NCBI GenBank assembly: GCA_017626295.1
Contig: JAGAJB010000036.1
Coordinates: 62,001-126,000 of the forward strand
Length of the DNA: 64,000 bases
Direction: 5' to 3'
Source of the DNA: Clostridia bacterium
GTDB lineage: Bacteria > Bacillota > Clostridia > Oscillospirales > Acutalibacteraceae
The translations under genes were made by a program, and so were the position numbers. Shown piece after piece: positions 56,553 to 62,923 of this stretch; position 1 is the first letter of the stretch, and every line of letters starts with the position of its first letter. Under the pieces are notes generated by a model. That model did no database searches and was not told the origin of the DNA. It saw nothing but the letters and a program-made list of their open reading frames with translations.

Positions 56553-57533
56553 ATGGATTTAATTAAACGTCCTGATGAAATGAAAAGAATTGATACCAAA
56601 GAACTTGCTGATGCATTTATTGCAGAACAAGTTGAAAAAATCCGTGCCCAAGTAGGCGATAAAAAAGTTTTACTCGCTCTTTCGGGCGGTGTTGATTCCT
56701 CTGTTGTTGCTGCATTGCTTATTAAAGCTGTCGGCAAGCAGCTTGTATGCGTTCACGTTAACCACGGTCTTATGAGAAAAGGGGAGAGCGAGCAGGTTAT
56801 CGACGTATTCGGTAAACAACTTGATGCCAACCTTATCTACATTGACGCAACTGACCGTTTCCTTGATAAACTTGCAGGTGTCGCTGACCCCGAAAAGAAA
56901 CGTAAAATTATCGGTAATGAATTTATCGAAGTTTTCAATGAGGAAGCACTTAAACTTGAGGGTATTTCATTCCTTGCTCAAGGTACAATTTATCCCGACA
57001 TCCTTGAAAGTGATGGCGTTAAGGCTCACCATAACGTAGGCGGTCTTCCCGAAGATATGAAACTTGAACTTTGCGAACCTGTCGCACTTCTTTATAAAGA
57101 CGAAGTTCGTGTTGTAGGTTCTGCACTCGGTCTTCCCGATGAAATGGTATACCGTCAGCCGTTCCCCGGTCCCGGACTCGGTGTTCGTTGCCTCGGTGCC
57201 ATTACCAGAGACAGACTCCACGCTCTCAGAGAAGCAGACGCTATCCTCAGAGAAGAGTTTGATAAAAACGGTCTCGCAGGTAAAGTTTGGCAGTATTTTA
57301 TTGCAGTCCCCGATGTTAAGAGCGTTGGCGTTAAGGATTCAAAGCGTTACGAAGGTTGGCCCGCAATCATCCGTGCAGTAAATACAACTGACGCTATGAC
57401 CGCAACTATTGAAGAAATTCCTTACAGCCTTCTTCACCACATCACCAACCGCATCACCCACGAAGTAGACGGTATCAACCGTGTTCTCTACGACCTCACA
57501 CCGAAGCCGATCGGAACAATAGAGTGGGAATAA
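56553..57533 (+). CDS. guaA: GMP synthase, ATP pyrophosphatase subunit (GuaA C-terminal part only)
   Basis: GMP synthase aminates XMP to GMP. This 326-residue protein has only the synthetase part: PP-loop LLALSGGVDSSVVAALL near residue 43, VHVNHGLMRKGESEQV, EGISFLAQGTIYPDILES, the dimerisation-domain RQPFPGPGLGVRCLG and a terminal DLTPKPIGTIEWE. The glutamine amidotransferase domain (about 190 residues) is absent. GGAGG precedes the ATG, so it is not a truncation artefact of start choice. The GATase may be encoded elsewhere, as in archaea, or the enzyme may use ammonia. A Tn7-like element lies downstream. Confidence 0.93.
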   Translation: MDLIKRPDEMKRIDTKELADAFIAEQVEKIRAQVGDKKVLLALSGGVDSSVVAALLIKAVGKQLVCVHVNHGLMRKGESEQVIDVFGKQLDANLIYIDATDRFLDKLAGVADPEKKRKIIGNEFIEVFNEEALKLEGISFLAQGTIYPDILESDGVKAHHNVGGLPEDMKLELCEPVALLYKDEVRVVGSALGLPDEMVYRQPFPGPGLGVRCLGAITRDRLHALREADAILREEFDKNGLAGKVWQYFIAVPDVKSVGVKDSKRYEGWPAIIRAVNTTDAMTATIEEIPYSLLHHITNRITHEVDGINRVLYDLTPKPIGTIEWE

Positions 57534-57615
57534 GAAAACTATTCTTGCAAAACTCATTTATTCTCCAAGGGGTAATTTCGTTTATCCTTTCCGGAATTAA
57601 ATAAACAAAGATTTA

Positions 57616-57651
57616 GACACTGTACATCATCAGATGTGCAGTGTCTTTTTT
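57616..57651 (+). terminator. Rho-independent terminator of guaA
   Basis: GACACTGTACATC (57616-57628) pairs with GATGTGCAGTGTC (57633-57645), 13 pairs with one G-T, around an ATCA loop, followed by TTTTTT. The proposed transposon end begins four bases behind the T run. Confidence 0.93.
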
Positions 57652-57657
57652 CTTTGT

Positions 57658-57897
57658 GTTTCTGGTAAAACTCAGCACATAAAACGTATATTCCGGTAAT
57701 TAAAATGCGTTATCCTCATTTCTGTTGCCGGCAATCAAAAAGGCGGTCAGAGCCTTGAAAAATAAAGAGAAATGAAACTTCTTCTCTTCTATTATCGCAT
57801 TCTTTTTTCTCTCTTTTTACCGGTATTATGATGTTCTTTCAGCTCACTTTTCCAGAACTATGAGGTTAGTTGGCTTAGTGTTACCGGTAAAGCAAAA
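57658..57897 (+). repeat. Left-end YGGTAA repeats, candidate TnsB sites
   Basis: Repeats lie at about 57658 (GTTTCTGGTAAAACTCAG), 57689 (TATTCCGGTAATTAAAATG), 57724 (GTTGCCGGCAATCAAAAAG), and 57879 (TGTTACCGGTAAAGCAAAA), all in one direction. A fifth, near 57816, reads in reverse (AATACCGGTAAAAAG). The first three are spaced by 31 and 35 bases. The region 57534-58134 has no gene apart from these, the guaA terminator and the array before tnsA. Confidence 0.55.
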
Positions 57898-57988
57898 TCG
57901 AAGTATCAAGTTCAGTTTTTCGGAAATCGCAGGAAGGTGAACAGGATGAAGAATTTTGCCTCGGAGAGAATAAATGAAAAAATCAATG

Positions 57989-58116
57989 ATATAAAGAGAT
58001 GCCAAAAATATGTTTTTGGGGAATTTTTAGAGTGTTTTATAGCCAAAAATAGCTAAATTTCCCCAAAAATGATATAAAAAATGCCAAAAATATGTTTTTG
58101 GGCAATTTTTGGCGGA
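57989..58116 (+). repeat. CCAAAAAT / ATTTTTGG array upstream of tnsA
   Basis: The near-palindrome GCCAAAAATATGTTTTTGGG occurs at 58001-58020 and again at 58083-58102, each inside a direct repeat that also contains GATATAAA. Additional CAAAAAT half-sites lie at 58043 and 58063, and a reversed copy near 58104-58112. TTTTTGGGGAA (58013) and TTTCCCCAAAAA (58058) can also pair. The array ends just before the TAGGAGG site of tnsA and is a good candidate operator. Confidence 0.6.
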
Positions 58117-58134
58117 ATTTTAGGAGGTTTATAA

Positions 58135-58503
58135 ATGAGAGCAAGTAATTTTAAGGGTGGACGGGTAATAAAGAAATCGCTGATAAAAAGTCAAAGTACT
58201 GTTAAGTGTTATGACAAGATTCAGGTTTCCTACGCTGGTATTTTGGAAAACGATGTTGATATTTATGAGATACGATGTAACGTTCTTCTTGATGGTCTGG
58301 ATGAAGGTGACTACACATCTGATTTCGTATGTACTAAAAACAATGGTGAACTGATGGTAAGAGAATGTGTATTCAGAAAGAAACTCTCTTTACCGAGAAC
58401 GTGTAAGCTGCTTGATGCAAGTAGGGCATATTGGTCAAGACGTGGTGTTACTGATTGGGCTATTGTCATAGAAAGTGAAGGTGTGCTTTATGAAGAAAAA
58501 TGA
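58135..58503 (+). CDS. tnsA: TnsA-like protein, degenerate endonuclease
   Basis: In Tn7, TnsA cuts the 5' strands at the transposon ends while TnsB cuts the 3' strands. This 122-residue protein matches only the TnsA N-terminal nuclease domain: GILENDVDIYEIRCNVLL, YTSDFVCTKNNGEL and LPRTCKLLDASRAYWSRRGV, the last being the RxYWxxRG block. Comparing the pattern with the family, the first glutamate becomes Q30, the aspartate is kept as D63, and the lysine of the ExK/QxK motif becomes V79 (RECVF). The C-terminal TnsC-contact domain of full TnsA (about 270 residues) is missing. It is the first gene of the tns operon, has a strong AGGAGG site, and overlaps tnsB by 14 bases. It probably binds but does not cut. 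Confidence 0.7.
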   Translation: MRASNFKGGRVIKKSLIKSQSTVKCYDKIQVSYAGILENDVDIYEIRCNVLLDGLDEGDYTSDFVCTKNNGELMVRECVFRKKLSLPRTCKLLDASRAYWSRRGVTDWAIVIESEGVLYEEK

Positions 58504-60292
58504 CCTTTTGAAGACACCAAATAGCGTATATCGTGTTCTTAACAGTGATAGTGAAAGTGTATTTGCTATTGATTGTATTAAGAAAACTATGCCTAAAACA
58601 TTTTCTTTAGATTATTTTAAGAAAGCTGAACCTGTAGCTACTCTTTCTCATTCATTTAAATCCTTTGATGAGTTAACTCCATCAGTGAGAAAGGTAGCAC
58701 AGGAACGATACACTATGATTGCCGGTGCTATATCTGTTGTTGATGATACATCGGAAAGAAATAGGATGATAAATAAGGCATCAGAACAGTTCGGCATCTC
58801 AAAACAAACAATACGCTCATATCTGTGCACTTATTTAGTGTATCAAGATTTAGCTTGTCTTGCACCAAGGGAAAAAACCGAAAAAGAACTTACTGAAGAC
58901 CAGAAGAATATGAGGTGGGCTTTAAATAAATTTTTCTATACACGAAATCAAAACTCATTACAAACTGCATACACAATGATGTTAAAAGATAAATACTGTG
59001 ATGAAGAAGGGGTGTTGTTACCTGAATTTCCGAGTTTTAACCAATTTAGATACTTTTACCGAAAATACAGAAAAATGGAGACTTTGTATATTAGTAGGGA
59101 TGGCTTGAAGGATTATCAGAGAAATAACAGACCTCTGCTTGGTGATGGCGTGCAAGAATTTGCACCTACGGTAGGCACAGCAATGCTTGATGGAACGGTT
59201 TGTGATATATACCTTGTTGATGATAAAGGGCAGTTAATTGGGAGACCGGTTTTAGTTGTTGCTTGTGATGCTAATACTTCTATGTGTTTGGGTTATTCTC
59301 TTCTATGGGAGGGTGGGACGTACTCACTTCAAACTTTAATGCTGAATATCATTGAAGACAAAGTTATTTTATGTGAAAGGTTAGGGATTAAGATAACGCC
59401 AGAACAATGGTCAATAAATCAACTTCCTGCAGTTATGGTAACAGATGGTGGTTCTGAATATGTAGGTAAAATTTTTGAGCAGATAACAGAGTTAGGGGTA
59501 ACTCTTATAAAATTGCCGTCATATAGACCTGAGTTAAAAGGCACAGTTGAAAAGTTCTTTGATGTAGTTCAGAATCTATACAAAGAAGTTTTGAAAGGCA
59601 AAGGTGTTATTATGCCGGACTTTCAAGAACGTGGTTCGCACGATTATCGCAAGGATGCTGTCTTAACATTACAAGAGTTTGAAAGAATCATTGTACGTTG
59701 CATTATTTATTATAATTGTGAAAGGGTATTACAAAACTATCCATACACAGAAGATATGCTTGAAAATAATGTGAAACCTTATGCTAATGAGATTTGGAAC
59801 TATAAGAAAAATGAGTCTGGGTCCAATTTAATTTCTGTAAATAAGCGTGACTTAACTTTAACGCTTCTACCACATATAACTGGTAAATTTACTCGTTTCG
59901 GACTGAAAGTAAACAAGTTAAGATACTACAATAAAGCTTATAAAGAACAATATTTGCAGTGTGGAGAAGTTACTGTTGTTTTTAATCCTGATGACTGTGG
60001 TAAGGTATGGCTGAAAGAATCAGATGGTTCATATGTTGAATTTGAACTTATTGAAAGTCGCTTTAAAGATATGTCGTTGGATAAAGTGCAGGAAATCCAA
60101 AGAAAACAAAAAGAAGTCGTTAAAAGTGCCGTAGAGGACAGTTTTCAAGCGAAAATTGAGCTGCTCTCCTTTATTGGAACTGTATCAAGTAAAGAGGCGC
60201 TCGAAGATGTGAAAATAGATGGAATACGAACTGCAAGAAAGAACGCAAGAAGAAAAGAGCACATAAATTTAGGTGGGAATATTGATGAATGA
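58490..60292 (+). CDS. tnsB: TnsB-type DDE transposase
   Basis: TnsB binds the transposon ends and joins the 3' strands to the target. The ATG at 58490 with GAAGGTG upstream is preferred to GTG 58475, giving 600 residues. An N-terminal helix-turn-helix (FGISKQTIRSYLCTYLVYQ, about residues 100-120) is followed by the RNase H core with D234 (AMLDGTVCD), D319 (MVTDGGSEY) and E354 (KGTVEKFF). The D-E spacing of 35 is standard. The C-terminal half has the Mu-B-like beta domain and a basic tail that should contact TnsC. Overlaps with tnsA (14 bases) and tnsC (8 bases) show a coupled operon. Confidence 0.92.
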   Translation: MKKNDLLKTPNSVYRVLNSDSESVFAIDCIKKTMPKTFSLDYFKKAEPVATLSHSFKSFDELTPSVRKVAQERYTMIAGAISVVDDTSERNRMINKASEQFGISKQTIRSYLCTYLVYQDLACLAPREKTEKELTEDQKNMRWALNKFFYTRNQNSLQTAYTMMLKDKYCDEEGVLLPEFPSFNQFRYFYRKYRKMETLYISRDGLKDYQRNNRPLLGDGVQEFAPTVGTAMLDGTVCDIYLVDDKGQLIGRPVLVVACDANTSMCLGYSLLWEGGTYSLQTLMLNIIEDKVILCERLGIKITPEQWSINQLPAVMVTDGGSEYVGKIFEQITELGVTLIKLPSYRPELKGTVEKFFDVVQNLYKEVLKGKGVIMPDFQERGSHDYRKDAVLTLQEFERIIVRCIIYYNCERVLQNYPYTEDMLENNVKPYANEIWNYKKNESGSNLISVNKRDLTLTLLPHITGKFTRFGLKVNKLRYYNKAYKEQYLQCGEVTVVFNPDDCGKVWLKESDGSYVEFELIESRFKDMSLDKVQEIQRKQKEVVKSAVEDSFQAKIELLSFIGTVSSKEALEDVKIDGIRTARKNARRKEHINLGGNIDE

Positions 60293-61511
60293 TTATGTAA
60301 AGTATATGCCTGAAATATTAATGGGAGATGAGCTTGATAAAAAACTACAGATTATACCGGATTATGATGCTGGTATAAGAAATGCATCTGCGACCGAAAG
60401 ACTTGTGGCACTACAGGATTTGTACTCTGTTTTCATTCCAAATCAATTGAGCCGTGAAATATATAGTAAACTTTATCTTTCGTTATTACGCTCGATGCAG
60501 AAAAAACAGTCAATTTTGGCTGTACGACAATATAACGAGAACAGTAAAATAATTCGTCAGAACTCCTACGAAAGCATTATTGGGGGTAGCGATTCATTTA
60601 CAATTATTGGACCGAGTGGAATTGGAAAGAGCTCGGCTATAAGTAGGGCAGTAAATATTCTTACAGAAACACCAGTTTTAAAACTCAACAATACAAATGT
60701 AATATCTTGTTTGCAAGTTCAAGCACCTGCAGATTGTTCAGTTAAAGGTTTGCTTCTTGAAATATTAAGGAAAGCTGATGAAGTATTGAACAGCAGTTAC
60801 TACAATAACGCTTTTAAATCACACCCAACAGTTGATATGTTGATTGGTATTGTGAGTCAGGTTGCTTTGAACCACATAGGTCTTTTAATTGTTGATGAAA
60901 TCCAGAATGTAGTTAACAGCAAAAACGGTAAAACAGTAATCGGAACGCTCACGCAGTTGATTAATAACAGTGGTGTTTCTATCAGTATGGTTGGTACACC
61001 TGAGAGTACTATCTTTTTTGAGCAGGCGATGATGCTCGCTCGAAGGTCGCTCGGATTAAACTATTCTGCTATGGAATATGGCGAGGTGTTCCGAGAATTC
61101 TGTGAAATACTTTTAAACTACGTATATGTAAAAGAAAAAGTTGATGTGAATGAAGCAATGCTTATGTGGTTATTCAATCATTCATCAGGTAATGCAAGCG
61201 TAGTAGTCAATTTAATACACGCAGCACAAGAAATAGCGATTCTCGAAGGTTACGAAACATTAAGTATAAAAACACTTAATCTGGCTTTTGAACGTAGGAT
61301 GGCGATGTTACACGACTATATTGATGTTCCGAAAACAAATACACCGAGCGTTAGAAAGAAAACAATAGAGTTGCCTGAAATTATAAAAGATGTGACATTG
61401 GATGAATTTGTAAGTATTTTTAAGATTTCTTCACGTGCTAAAGCACAGGGCGTTGATATAGTTTGTGAACTAATTAAGAATGATATTTCGATAATCGAGG
61501 TGCCGGTATGA
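60285..61511 (+). CDS. tnsC: TnsC-type AAA+ ATPase
   Basis: TnsC is the ATP-dependent regulator that links target selection by TniQ to TnsA/B. The ATG at 60285 follows AGGTGGG and overlaps the tnsB stop by 8 bases; it gives 408 residues. Walker A GPSGIGKSSA is at 109-118, Walker B LLIVDEIQN has D204 and E205, and a sensor segment SISMVGTPEST follows. The N-terminal 100 residues (YNENSKIIRQNSYESIIGG) match the TniB/TnsC pattern, and a C-terminal winged-helix-like part ends it. It overlaps tniQ by 4 bases. Confidence 0.92.
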   Translation: MNDYVKYMPEILMGDELDKKLQIIPDYDAGIRNASATERLVALQDLYSVFIPNQLSREIYSKLYLSLLRSMQKKQSILAVRQYNENSKIIRQNSYESIIGGSDSFTIIGPSGIGKSSAISRAVNILTETPVLKLNNTNVISCLQVQAPADCSVKGLLLEILRKADEVLNSSYYNNAFKSHPTVDMLIGIVSQVALNHIGLLIVDEIQNVVNSKNGKTVIGTLTQLINNSGVSISMVGTPESTIFFEQAMMLARRSLGLNYSAMEYGEVFREFCEILLNYVYVKEKVDVNEAMLMWLFNHSSGNASVVVNLIHAAQEIAILEGYETLSIKTLNLAFERRMAMLHDYIDVPKTNTPSVRKKTIELPEIIKDVTLDEFVSIFKISSRAKAQGVDIVCELIKNDISIIEVPV

Positions 61512-62923
61512 TTGCTTTCTTTCCAGAAATATATCCCGATGAACTTCTGTACTCTCAGATAGCCAGATACCACAGCAGGAGCGGTTATGCCAGATACACT
61601 TATACATCTTCAGACATATACAACAATGAAAAACTCGTCCACCCAAGCATTGAATTCGTAAATCGTTACACAGCAGATGCTATGGAGTGGATTTCTAAAG
61701 ATAAGCCGTGGGAAGAGGTAACAGCCGAGCACACAATGTATCCTGCATATATCAGGTTTTTGCCTAAGCAAAGAAGGGTGGATGCTGTTAATGGTATTCT
61801 AACCTGCGAAGGAAACTGGAAAAACTTAATGTGTCTGCCTTTACAGAAAGAGAAAAGATATATTCGTTATTGTCCAATATGCGCAAAAGAAGACCGAAAA
61901 ATATATGGCGAAACCTACTGGCATAGAGACCATCAGATACCGAGAATCAATGTTTGCCCAAAGCATAGATGTTATTTGGAAAATAGCATAATTGAAAATT
62001 CCTCTAAAACTTCACCGGGACTTTATGATGCAGAGGGTTATGTACCCCAAGAAAGCGAACCGTGCATTTGTCAGAACGAAAGAAAACTTGCTTTCACAGA
62101 GTATGTTATAAATGTGTTTCATCACCCTATAGATTTGTGTAATACACTTTCAATTGGAAAATTTTTACACTCACATTTAAGTAAAGGGTATCTTAATGAA
62201 TCAGGGCTTGTGAGAAACATCTCTAAACTGTATAAAGACTACCTTGCTTTCTATGGTAATGAAATTCCTACAATGCCACAGTCGTATATGCAGAAGATAT
62301 TTAATGGTTATATTTATGATAATTACTTTGTTCTTCAACTTGCTTATTTTGAGGATGTTACTGTTCAGGAGATTACAAACTTGTCTGATACTGTTCCTTT
62401 ATTTGGAATTGATTCTCTATATAAAGAGTTGTCTGATAAGTATAACATTGATTTCTGTATAGTCAAAGAAATTGGAGATACCGCTCTTAAACATTCATAT
62501 AATCAAAACCGAGTTGCAAAGAAATCAGGTGTACGAGAAGCTCTATATAACGAACTTGATGAAAAATATTTATCACAAGTTAAAGATATCGTTGAGGAGA
62601 TAGTTAATAAGCAGGGTAGACCTGAAAAGCTATCGTTATCAAAAGTAACAAAAGCATTAAATCTACCTCAAAAGCAGATTAATAAACTCCCGAAATGTAA
62701 AGCGTATATCGAACAATATATCGAAACACAACCACAGTTTTGGGCTCGTCAAGTAGAGTGGGCGTACAAAGAGATGCAAAACAATGATAATCCTATAAAT
62801 CTCACTCGAATTATGAAGTTGACAAATATGAGATTGAAAGATATCAGATGTTGTAGCTCTTATATCAAAAACGAAAAGGTGAAATTAATTATTGATGAGC
62901 TACTTTTTTGCAAAGTCTATTAG
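61508..62923 (+). CDS. tniQ: TniQ/TnsD-type target-selection protein
   Basis: TniQ/TnsD proteins choose the insertion site, either by binding DNA or through a partner. The 471-residue protein has the TniQ N-domain: FFPEIYPDELLYSQIARYHSRSG and the zinc finger C122-P-I-C125 ... H139 ... C150-P-K-H153 with YWHRDHQIPRINVCPKH. The extended C-terminal part (about 200-471) has helix-turn-helix-like segments (SLSKVTKALNLPQKQINKL and NLTRIMKLTNMRLKDIRC), fitting a TnsD that reads DNA. The position behind guaA suggests that the guaA end is its target. GGTG precedes the ATG, which overlaps the tnsC stop as ATGA. Confidence 0.9.
   Translation: MIAFFPEIYPDELLYSQIARYHSRSGYARYTYTSSDIYNNEKLVHPSIEFVNRYTADAMEWISKDKPWEEVTAEHTMYPAYIRFLPKQRRVDAVNGILTCEGNWKNLMCLPLQKEKRYIRYCPICAKEDRKIYGETYWHRDHQIPRINVCPKHRCYLENSIIENSSKTSPGLYDAEGYVPQESEPCICQNERKLAFTEYVINVFHHPIDLCNTLSIGKFLHSHLSKGYLNESGLVRNISKLYKDYLAFYGNEIPTMPQSYMQKIFNGYIYDNYFVLQLAYFEDVTVQEITNLSDTVPLFGIDSLYKELSDKYNIDFCIVKEIGDTALKHSYNQNRVAKKSGVREALYNELDEKYLSQVKDIVEEIVNKQGRPEKLSLSKVTKALNLPQKQINKLPKCKAYIEQYIETQPQFWARQVEWAYKEMQNNDNPINLTRIMKLTNMRLKDIRCCSSYIKNEKVKLIIDELLFCKVY

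Follow-up and report, generated by a model that had tools for sequence, protein, structure and literature searches.

A substituted TnsA and direct copies of a small end unit in a family of Tn7-like elements consistent with integration as a cointegrate

We asked what kind of product is made by a Tn7-like element in which the TnsA-like protein has replaced most of its catalytic residues. The question is raised by a stretch of 64,000 nucleotides (referred to here as the window) from a Clostridia bacterium. The original prediction for this DNA was that the TnsA-like protein had lost two of its three catalytic residues, that it was maintained for something other than cutting, and that the element transposed replicatively, through cointegrates. 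We analyzed the window locus and compared it to related loci.

The window locus and its TnsA-like protein

The transposition genes in the window are all on the forward strand. The tnsA-like gene (58135..58503) encodes an N-terminal domain of 122 amino acids and is preceded by a ribosome binding site, AGGAGG (58122..58127). It is followed by tnsB (58490..60292), encoding a DDE transposase; the likely start of tnsB, an ATG at 58490, is within the 3' end of tnsA, and its residues D239, D324 and E359 are numbered from a GTG at 58475. Next are tnsC (60273..61511), encoding an AAA ATPase (AAA_22/TniB), and tniQ/tnsD (61508..62923), encoding a TniQ-domain target-site selector. The products of tnsB (Mu-transpos_C), tnsC (AAA_22/TniB) and tniQ (TniQ) passed the Pfam cut-offs. 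Upstream of tnsA, the open reading frame at 56553..57533 (forward strand), which we take from its sequence to be guaA (the large part of GMP synthase), has its 3' end adjoining the insertion. An excerpt of PMC11406308 gives as a working definition of Tn7-like transposons the presence of TnsB and TnsC together with TnsA and/or TniQ, and the window element has this combination. Among 90 related loci, tnsA, tnsB, tnsC and tniQ were all matched in 53, contig ends shortening many of the others. The TnsB triad was intact in the matched pieces (D in 71/72, D in 67/67, and E in 67/67).

We found that the TnsA-like protein has the fold of the TnsA N-terminal domain (PF08722/Tn7 TnsA) and does not have the full set of residues expected of the endonuclease (catalytic E63, D114 and K132). 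By profile alignment, Q30, D63 and V79 are at the positions of E63, D114 and K132 of Tn7 TnsA, and E77 is at the position of Q130. That is, two of the three catalytic residues are replaced, as predicted originally. We compared this protein to homologues from species genomes (80 of 96 loci retained) and viral contigs (10 loci). With the window protein, the set contains 91 proteins, 88 of them distinct and two of them cut or run-on. D63 and C78 are present in 88 of the 88 distinct homologues and E77 in 87. Q30 is present in 85, the remaining three having M, E or T. None has lysine at position 79 (V in 76, I in 5, L in 3, C in 2, and T and M in one each), and 83 have a basic residue at position 81. 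Among five relatives at a greater distance (L004, L005, L007, L008 and L009), the residue at the Q30 position is A in four and E in one, position 79 is I, V or A, and the D and E are retained.

The median dN/dS of tnsA was 0.063 (357 overlapping pairs). Because of this low value and the family-wide conservation, we conclude from sequence comparison that the tnsA-like gene is a maintained gene. The protein has probably lost nuclease activity, and the subunit, no longer cutting, would then have a structural role. The part of the original prediction that called for a maintained subunit is therefore borne out by conservation and dN/dS, and the role itself is proposed. The suggestion that the protein is an intermediate step in loss of TnsA is not supported: Q, D and V are nearly fixed in a set of 88 distinct homologues that spans many genomes, and the five more distant relatives lack the lysine as well. 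Local decay of TnsA is rejected given the family-wide recurrence of the substitutions and the low dN/dS. K82 and K83 were considered as substitutes for the catalytic lysine and are ruled out as they are not conserved in the 88 homologues.

In another lineage, the catalytic Asp of long clostridial TnsA proteins (L020, L021, L024-L028 and L033) is replaced by T or N. In several of these the Glu position is also changed, to Q, and the lysine is mostly retained (by eye). The contig of the window (L010) contains, ~3.1 kb past the window end, a TnpB-like gene that is apparently split and permuted (L010:10060-11533). The RuvC/TNB half (IS200_TnpB 169-359) precedes a separate open reading frame with a weak match to the earlier part of the TnpB-type transposase family; both halves match TnpB models and not Cas12k. 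The N-terminal half had no match in the other loci compared and the C-terminal half had one, at 27%, in L256. The same contig encodes a 137-amino acid cargo protein (L010:7664-8074), presumably of the SLOG type, that is common to the elements of G706 and G701 (36-41% identity).

End units, direct repeats and target duplications

A new feature of these elements is a unit with inverted ends, 205-547 bp long, that separates the target gene from tnsA. In many of the relatives it measures ~250 bp, has both inverted termini complete (TGTCG...CGACA in one clade) and is found between the upstream gene and tnsA. The window has a unit of similar layout, terminator included, at 57540..57989 (forward strand; approximate limits, placed by eye from the layout in relatives). 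Its outer end, TATTCTTGCA, is 3' of guaA and its inner end is just before TATAAAGAG. The 5 bp preceding position 57540 are AAAAC, the predicted target duplication of this element. The arms of this unit (57554-57588 and 57943-57977) are 71% complementary, and an intrinsic terminator, read by eye, is located at 57616..57651 on the forward strand in the guaA-tnsA interval. Between the unit and tnsA (57994..58110, forward strand) are two 35-bp repeats containing CCAAAAATATGTTTTTGGG, which are possible candidate sites for TnsB or a regulator. Repeated TTTTTGGG/CCCAAAAA motifs are found in the same interval in the window (57994-58110) and in many of the relatives printed, and may be protein-binding sites.

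In relatives, the unit is often present twice. A downstream second copy in Anaerotruncus G3 is 94% identical and in direct orientation. In the clade with TGTCG-type ends (searches of 18 genomes), copy A is bordered by host DNA on the left and by the constant sequence TGGTGAT on the right; copy B has the reverse arrangement, with the constant sequence GGATACTA at the left and host DNA at the right. That is, the outer flanks were host DNA and the inner flanks were constant in 25 of 25 full copies. Using the upstream region of each of 20 group-I genomes as its own query, we found a direct repeat of 205-547 bp and 98-100% identity, 3 to 47 kb downstream on the same contig, in 8 genomes (G706, G699, G707b, G686, G701, G673, G682 and G695). 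The other 12 had no second copy of at least 100 bp on the stretch fetched (G110 had 67 bp only); two of these, G671 and G672, have a second copy on another contig. Further copy pairs were in G671, G668, G680 and G672. Group II consists of distant lysine-less elements, and direct repeats were present in three of the four tested (a fifth, L005, is outside the test): G139 (227 bp, 88.5% identity), G055 (224 bp, 88.4%) and G035 (427 bp, 100%). The fourth, G193, had none within the 17 kb to hand. In the 11 same-contig pairs from both groups the second copy was 3-54 kb downstream, and copy identity was 98-100% in nine and 88% in two.

In contrast, no direct repeat >100 bp was found in 10 elements with long TnsA (G319, G435, G468, G375, G562, G473, G457, G628, G600 and G509) when ~30-38 kb of downstream DNA was compared to 0.9-1.3 kb of upstream sequence; inverted matches were found in G435 and G600. 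This contrast is between short lysine-less and long TnsA proteins, some of the latter being altered and not proven to be active enzymes. Long direct repeats were also absent from the elements with altered long TnsA (G375, G562, G509 and G457).

Copies are 99-100% identical within G671, G673, G695, G706, G699, G707b, G686, G701 and G035, and the best other unit is 94% (G671), 85% (G673) or 72% (G695) identical. The near-identity in G671 (100 vs 94%) and G673 (99.6 vs 85%) fits fresh copying, and G668 (93.2 vs 90-91%) leans the same way. The copies in G680 are 94.4% identical (95.2% to the best other unit), and those in G675 and G677, which are unproven pairs, are no more alike than each is to the best other unit. 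In G139 and G055 the likeness is crossed, an end in one genome resembling the opposite end in the other. These five cases imply age or recombination, and the crosswise likeness of G139 and G055 suggests later recombination.

Several other arrangements of units were observed. L171, L172 and L214 have tandem end units 3-4 bp apart, which suggests that a single attachment site was used more than once. L071 (9433-9809) has two end units before tnsA, a complete one directly adjoining the inner side of a truncated one, an arrangement that we read from its sequence as nested or recombined units. The contigs of L061, L050 and L117 start inside an end unit, ~265-420 bp before tnsA, as expected for a repeated unit.

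The outer flanks of the copies have target duplications. A perfect 5-bp duplication was present in 10 of the 19 copy pairs read: G671 (TAATA), G673 (AAAGA), G668 (CAATA), G672 (CTAAA), G706 (AACGG), G707b (ATAAA), G686 (TCTCA), G701 (TTTCA), G139 (AATTG) and G035 (GCCGA), the exact terminus for several pairs being set by eye, 1-5 bases from the computed repeat boundary. Three were imperfect or shifted (G682, six matching bases with a shifted end; G680, 4/5; G055, shifted by one). Six had none (G699, G695, G675, G677, G670 and G678); in the last four, the two copies are not on one contig and could come from separate elements. Among all different-contig pairs, duplications matched in 3 of 7. Insertion 3' of a conserved gene with a 5-bp duplication, a trait of Tn7-like elements, is thus found in the relatives. 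In 25 of the 90 loci, guaA is found upstream of tnsA at a distance of no more than 0.9 kb, many loci starting too close to tell. In the window, the guaA side of the insertion is the visible one.

We also found an empty site. In a Sporomusa relative (G1101, L275), the unit is absent and guaA runs into TAATCTAAAATAG and then into DNA that, in S. ovata, adjoins the far side of the element. As read by eye, the site fits the uninterrupted, single-copy CTAAA target of Sporomusa acidovorans.

Proposed cointegrate integration and its alternatives

Based on these results, we think it quite likely that these elements, with a TnsA that probably no longer cuts, integrate as cointegrates. In the relatives, direct unit copies that have transposon ends flank donor DNA that itself lacks such ends, and the target duplication lies beyond the copies; this is the form of a cointegrate. 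The loss of E63 and K132 from TnsA would leave TnsB cutting 3' strands only, and this would lead to the cointegrate form. In our model, the TnsA-like protein is kept in a TnsA-TnsB-TnsC-TniQ machine that TniQ would direct to the 3' end of a conserved gene (guaA in the window). TnsB would nick only the 3' strands at both ends of the small unit (~450 bp in the window), and strand transfer without a 5' cut would generate a Shapiro intermediate. Replication of this intermediate would give a cointegrate in which the whole donor molecule is between two direct unit copies, with the 5-bp target duplication outside. The donor is presumably a circle or plasmid-like replicon containing the unit, tnsABC-tniQ and cargo, with the target probably chosen by TniQ. 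We propose that the circle has the junction GGATACTA-unit-TGGTGATA.

The predicted cointegrate route is thus strongly supported by direct-repeat ends and outer duplications in relatives; for the window element itself, a second unit copy was not found in the draft genome, the contig ending 12.1 kb beyond tnsA, and its cointegrate state is likely by analogy with relatives. No resolvase was recognized within the 12 kb seen of this element. The search for cointegrate junctions in related genomes gave unit copies with outer duplications but no circular form: a junction of distal flank, unit and proximal flank was found in none of the viral contigs, 258 loci or 24 genomes searched with an exact pattern that fits the TGTCG-type clade only. 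TnsB matches in plasmid and phage collections were all <60% identical. A survey of cargo (ten proteins picked by eye; open reading frames listed for five elements) revealed replication-type genes, encoding a D5/primase protein (G706) and Toprim and helicase-type proteins (G686). It also revealed serine recombinases in two elements (G701 and G707b) and a weak tyrosine-recombinase match in G706. A plasmid-like donor is therefore plausible from gene content.

It is also possible that these are ordinary transposons using their two outermost ends, the inner ends being TnsB regulatory sites and the units being kept alike by gene conversion. The outer ends are inverted and flanked by a target duplication, as in any transposon, and the cross pattern of G139 and G055 and the composite unit of L071 suggest exchange between units. 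However, an ordinary transposon leaves unexplained both the complete second terminus, in opposite orientation, at each end and direct repeats of 205-547 bp that are 98-100% identical in 9 of 11 same-contig cases, and such units are missing from the long-TnsA elements (0/10). We consider this explanation unlikely. A circle might instead enter a pre-existing target unit by homologous (RecA) or site-specific recombination rather than by TnsB. This would produce the same kind of direct repeats, and there are serine recombinases in 2 of the 5 elements with listed open reading frames and the weak tyrosine-recombinase match in a third. Yet the guaA site of the Sporomusa relative has no unit and appears by eye to fit a single copy of CTAAA, and recombination would leave the tnsABC-tniQ operon without a job. 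Clean solo units were not found either: all 25 full copies had a constant A or B flank, and the full unit of L071, which borders the inner side of another unit, was the one exception observed. When 391 genomes from the class were searched, with one query clade and at most two candidates scored per genome, only the query's own genome and two partial matches were recovered. Entry by recombination seems very improbable.

PD-(D/E)XK enzymes can relocate catalytic residues, and the conservation of D63, E77 and a basic residue at position 81 would be compatible with a TnsA that still cuts through an altered active site and supports cut-and-paste transposition. However, of the 88 homologues, 85 have Q at the E position and none has lysine at the K position, and the genomic products have the cointegrate form. 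We regard continued cutting as the least probable of these explanations, and favor integration as a cointegrate.

A broader proposal, which we make tentatively and think somewhat doubtful, is that these elements are integrative replicons with a Tn7-type site-directed integrase in which TnsA is permanently disabled. The cointegrate would be the normal mode of entry, the units would be LTR-like, and an RNA switch would confine tns expression to the circle. A promoter at the distal edge and a short antiterminator would meet the terminator in the unit, ahead of tnsA, only after the ends are joined. A script found a -10 box, with no chance control, in 17 of the 19 distal flanks, and after it come bases that are complementary to the unit's terminator. 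Flank-terminator duplexes averaged -15.5 kcal/mol for an element's own pair and -10.2 kcal/mol between classes. In 500 shuffles, 6 of the 18 own duplexes were matched no more than 5 times, 11 no more than 8 times, and 7 at least 38 times; the nineteenth (G035) was matched by 59 of 1000. With five terminator classes, own pairing ranked 1 of 120, by a margin of only 0.6 kcal/mol, and the G686 distal flank was not specific. By RNAfold, the terminator was retained in 17 of 18 leaders and disrupted in one. The switch is a lead, and these data are only suggestive.

Significance and relation to known systems

We predict an integrase function, for whole replicons, in a class of Tn7-like elements from gut Clostridia and from genera such as Sporomusa and Pelosinus. 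The repeat ends provide a simple signature for finding and bounding such elements, and a non-cutting role of TnsA in TnsB activation becomes directly testable. Among the matches listed in the literature on TnsA, cointegrates, Tn7-like elements and antiterminators, a set that leaves most subscription papers outside, there was no natural family with a dead TnsA and no such repeat anatomy.

Excerpts of PMC8649781 and PMC11406308 cite May and Craig (1996) for Tn7 with TnsA active-site mutants, in which dead TnsA and working TnsB give replicative transposition. The family described here is alike in having a TnsA-type protein, catalytically dead as judged from sequence, beside TnsB. It differs in that this state is natural and family-wide, the C-terminal domain is gone, and the apparent transposed unit is a small repeat without tns genes.

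According to the same excerpts (PMC8649781, PMC11406308), Tn5053/Tn402-like and type V-K Tn7-like elements have no TnsA and form cointegrate products. The original comparison with these elements fits in chemistry, a TnsB-type transposase without 5' cutting and cointegrate products being common to both, and some elements of the present family carry genes of putative resolvase type. The anatomy differs. Here a tnsA-like gene precedes tnsB and is kept under selection, the apparent transposed unit has no tns genes, and the integrated form is unit-element-unit with direct repeats.

In Tn916, as described in an excerpt of PMC11658703, a terminator near one end insulates the genes of the element, and after excision they can be expressed owing to an antiterminator. 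Our data suggest a comparable layout of terminator and antiterminator, the proposed antiterminator being a short complementary stretch that is only suggestive. To our knowledge, no TnsB-type transposase is involved in Tn916.

Translocatable units of IS26 are circles that join a target via a cointegrate and so end up flanked by direct copies of a small unit. The family described here has direct flanking unit copies and may share the circle-to-target route. Unlike in IS26, the transposase genes are outside the small unit, in a Tn7-type operon with a target selector.
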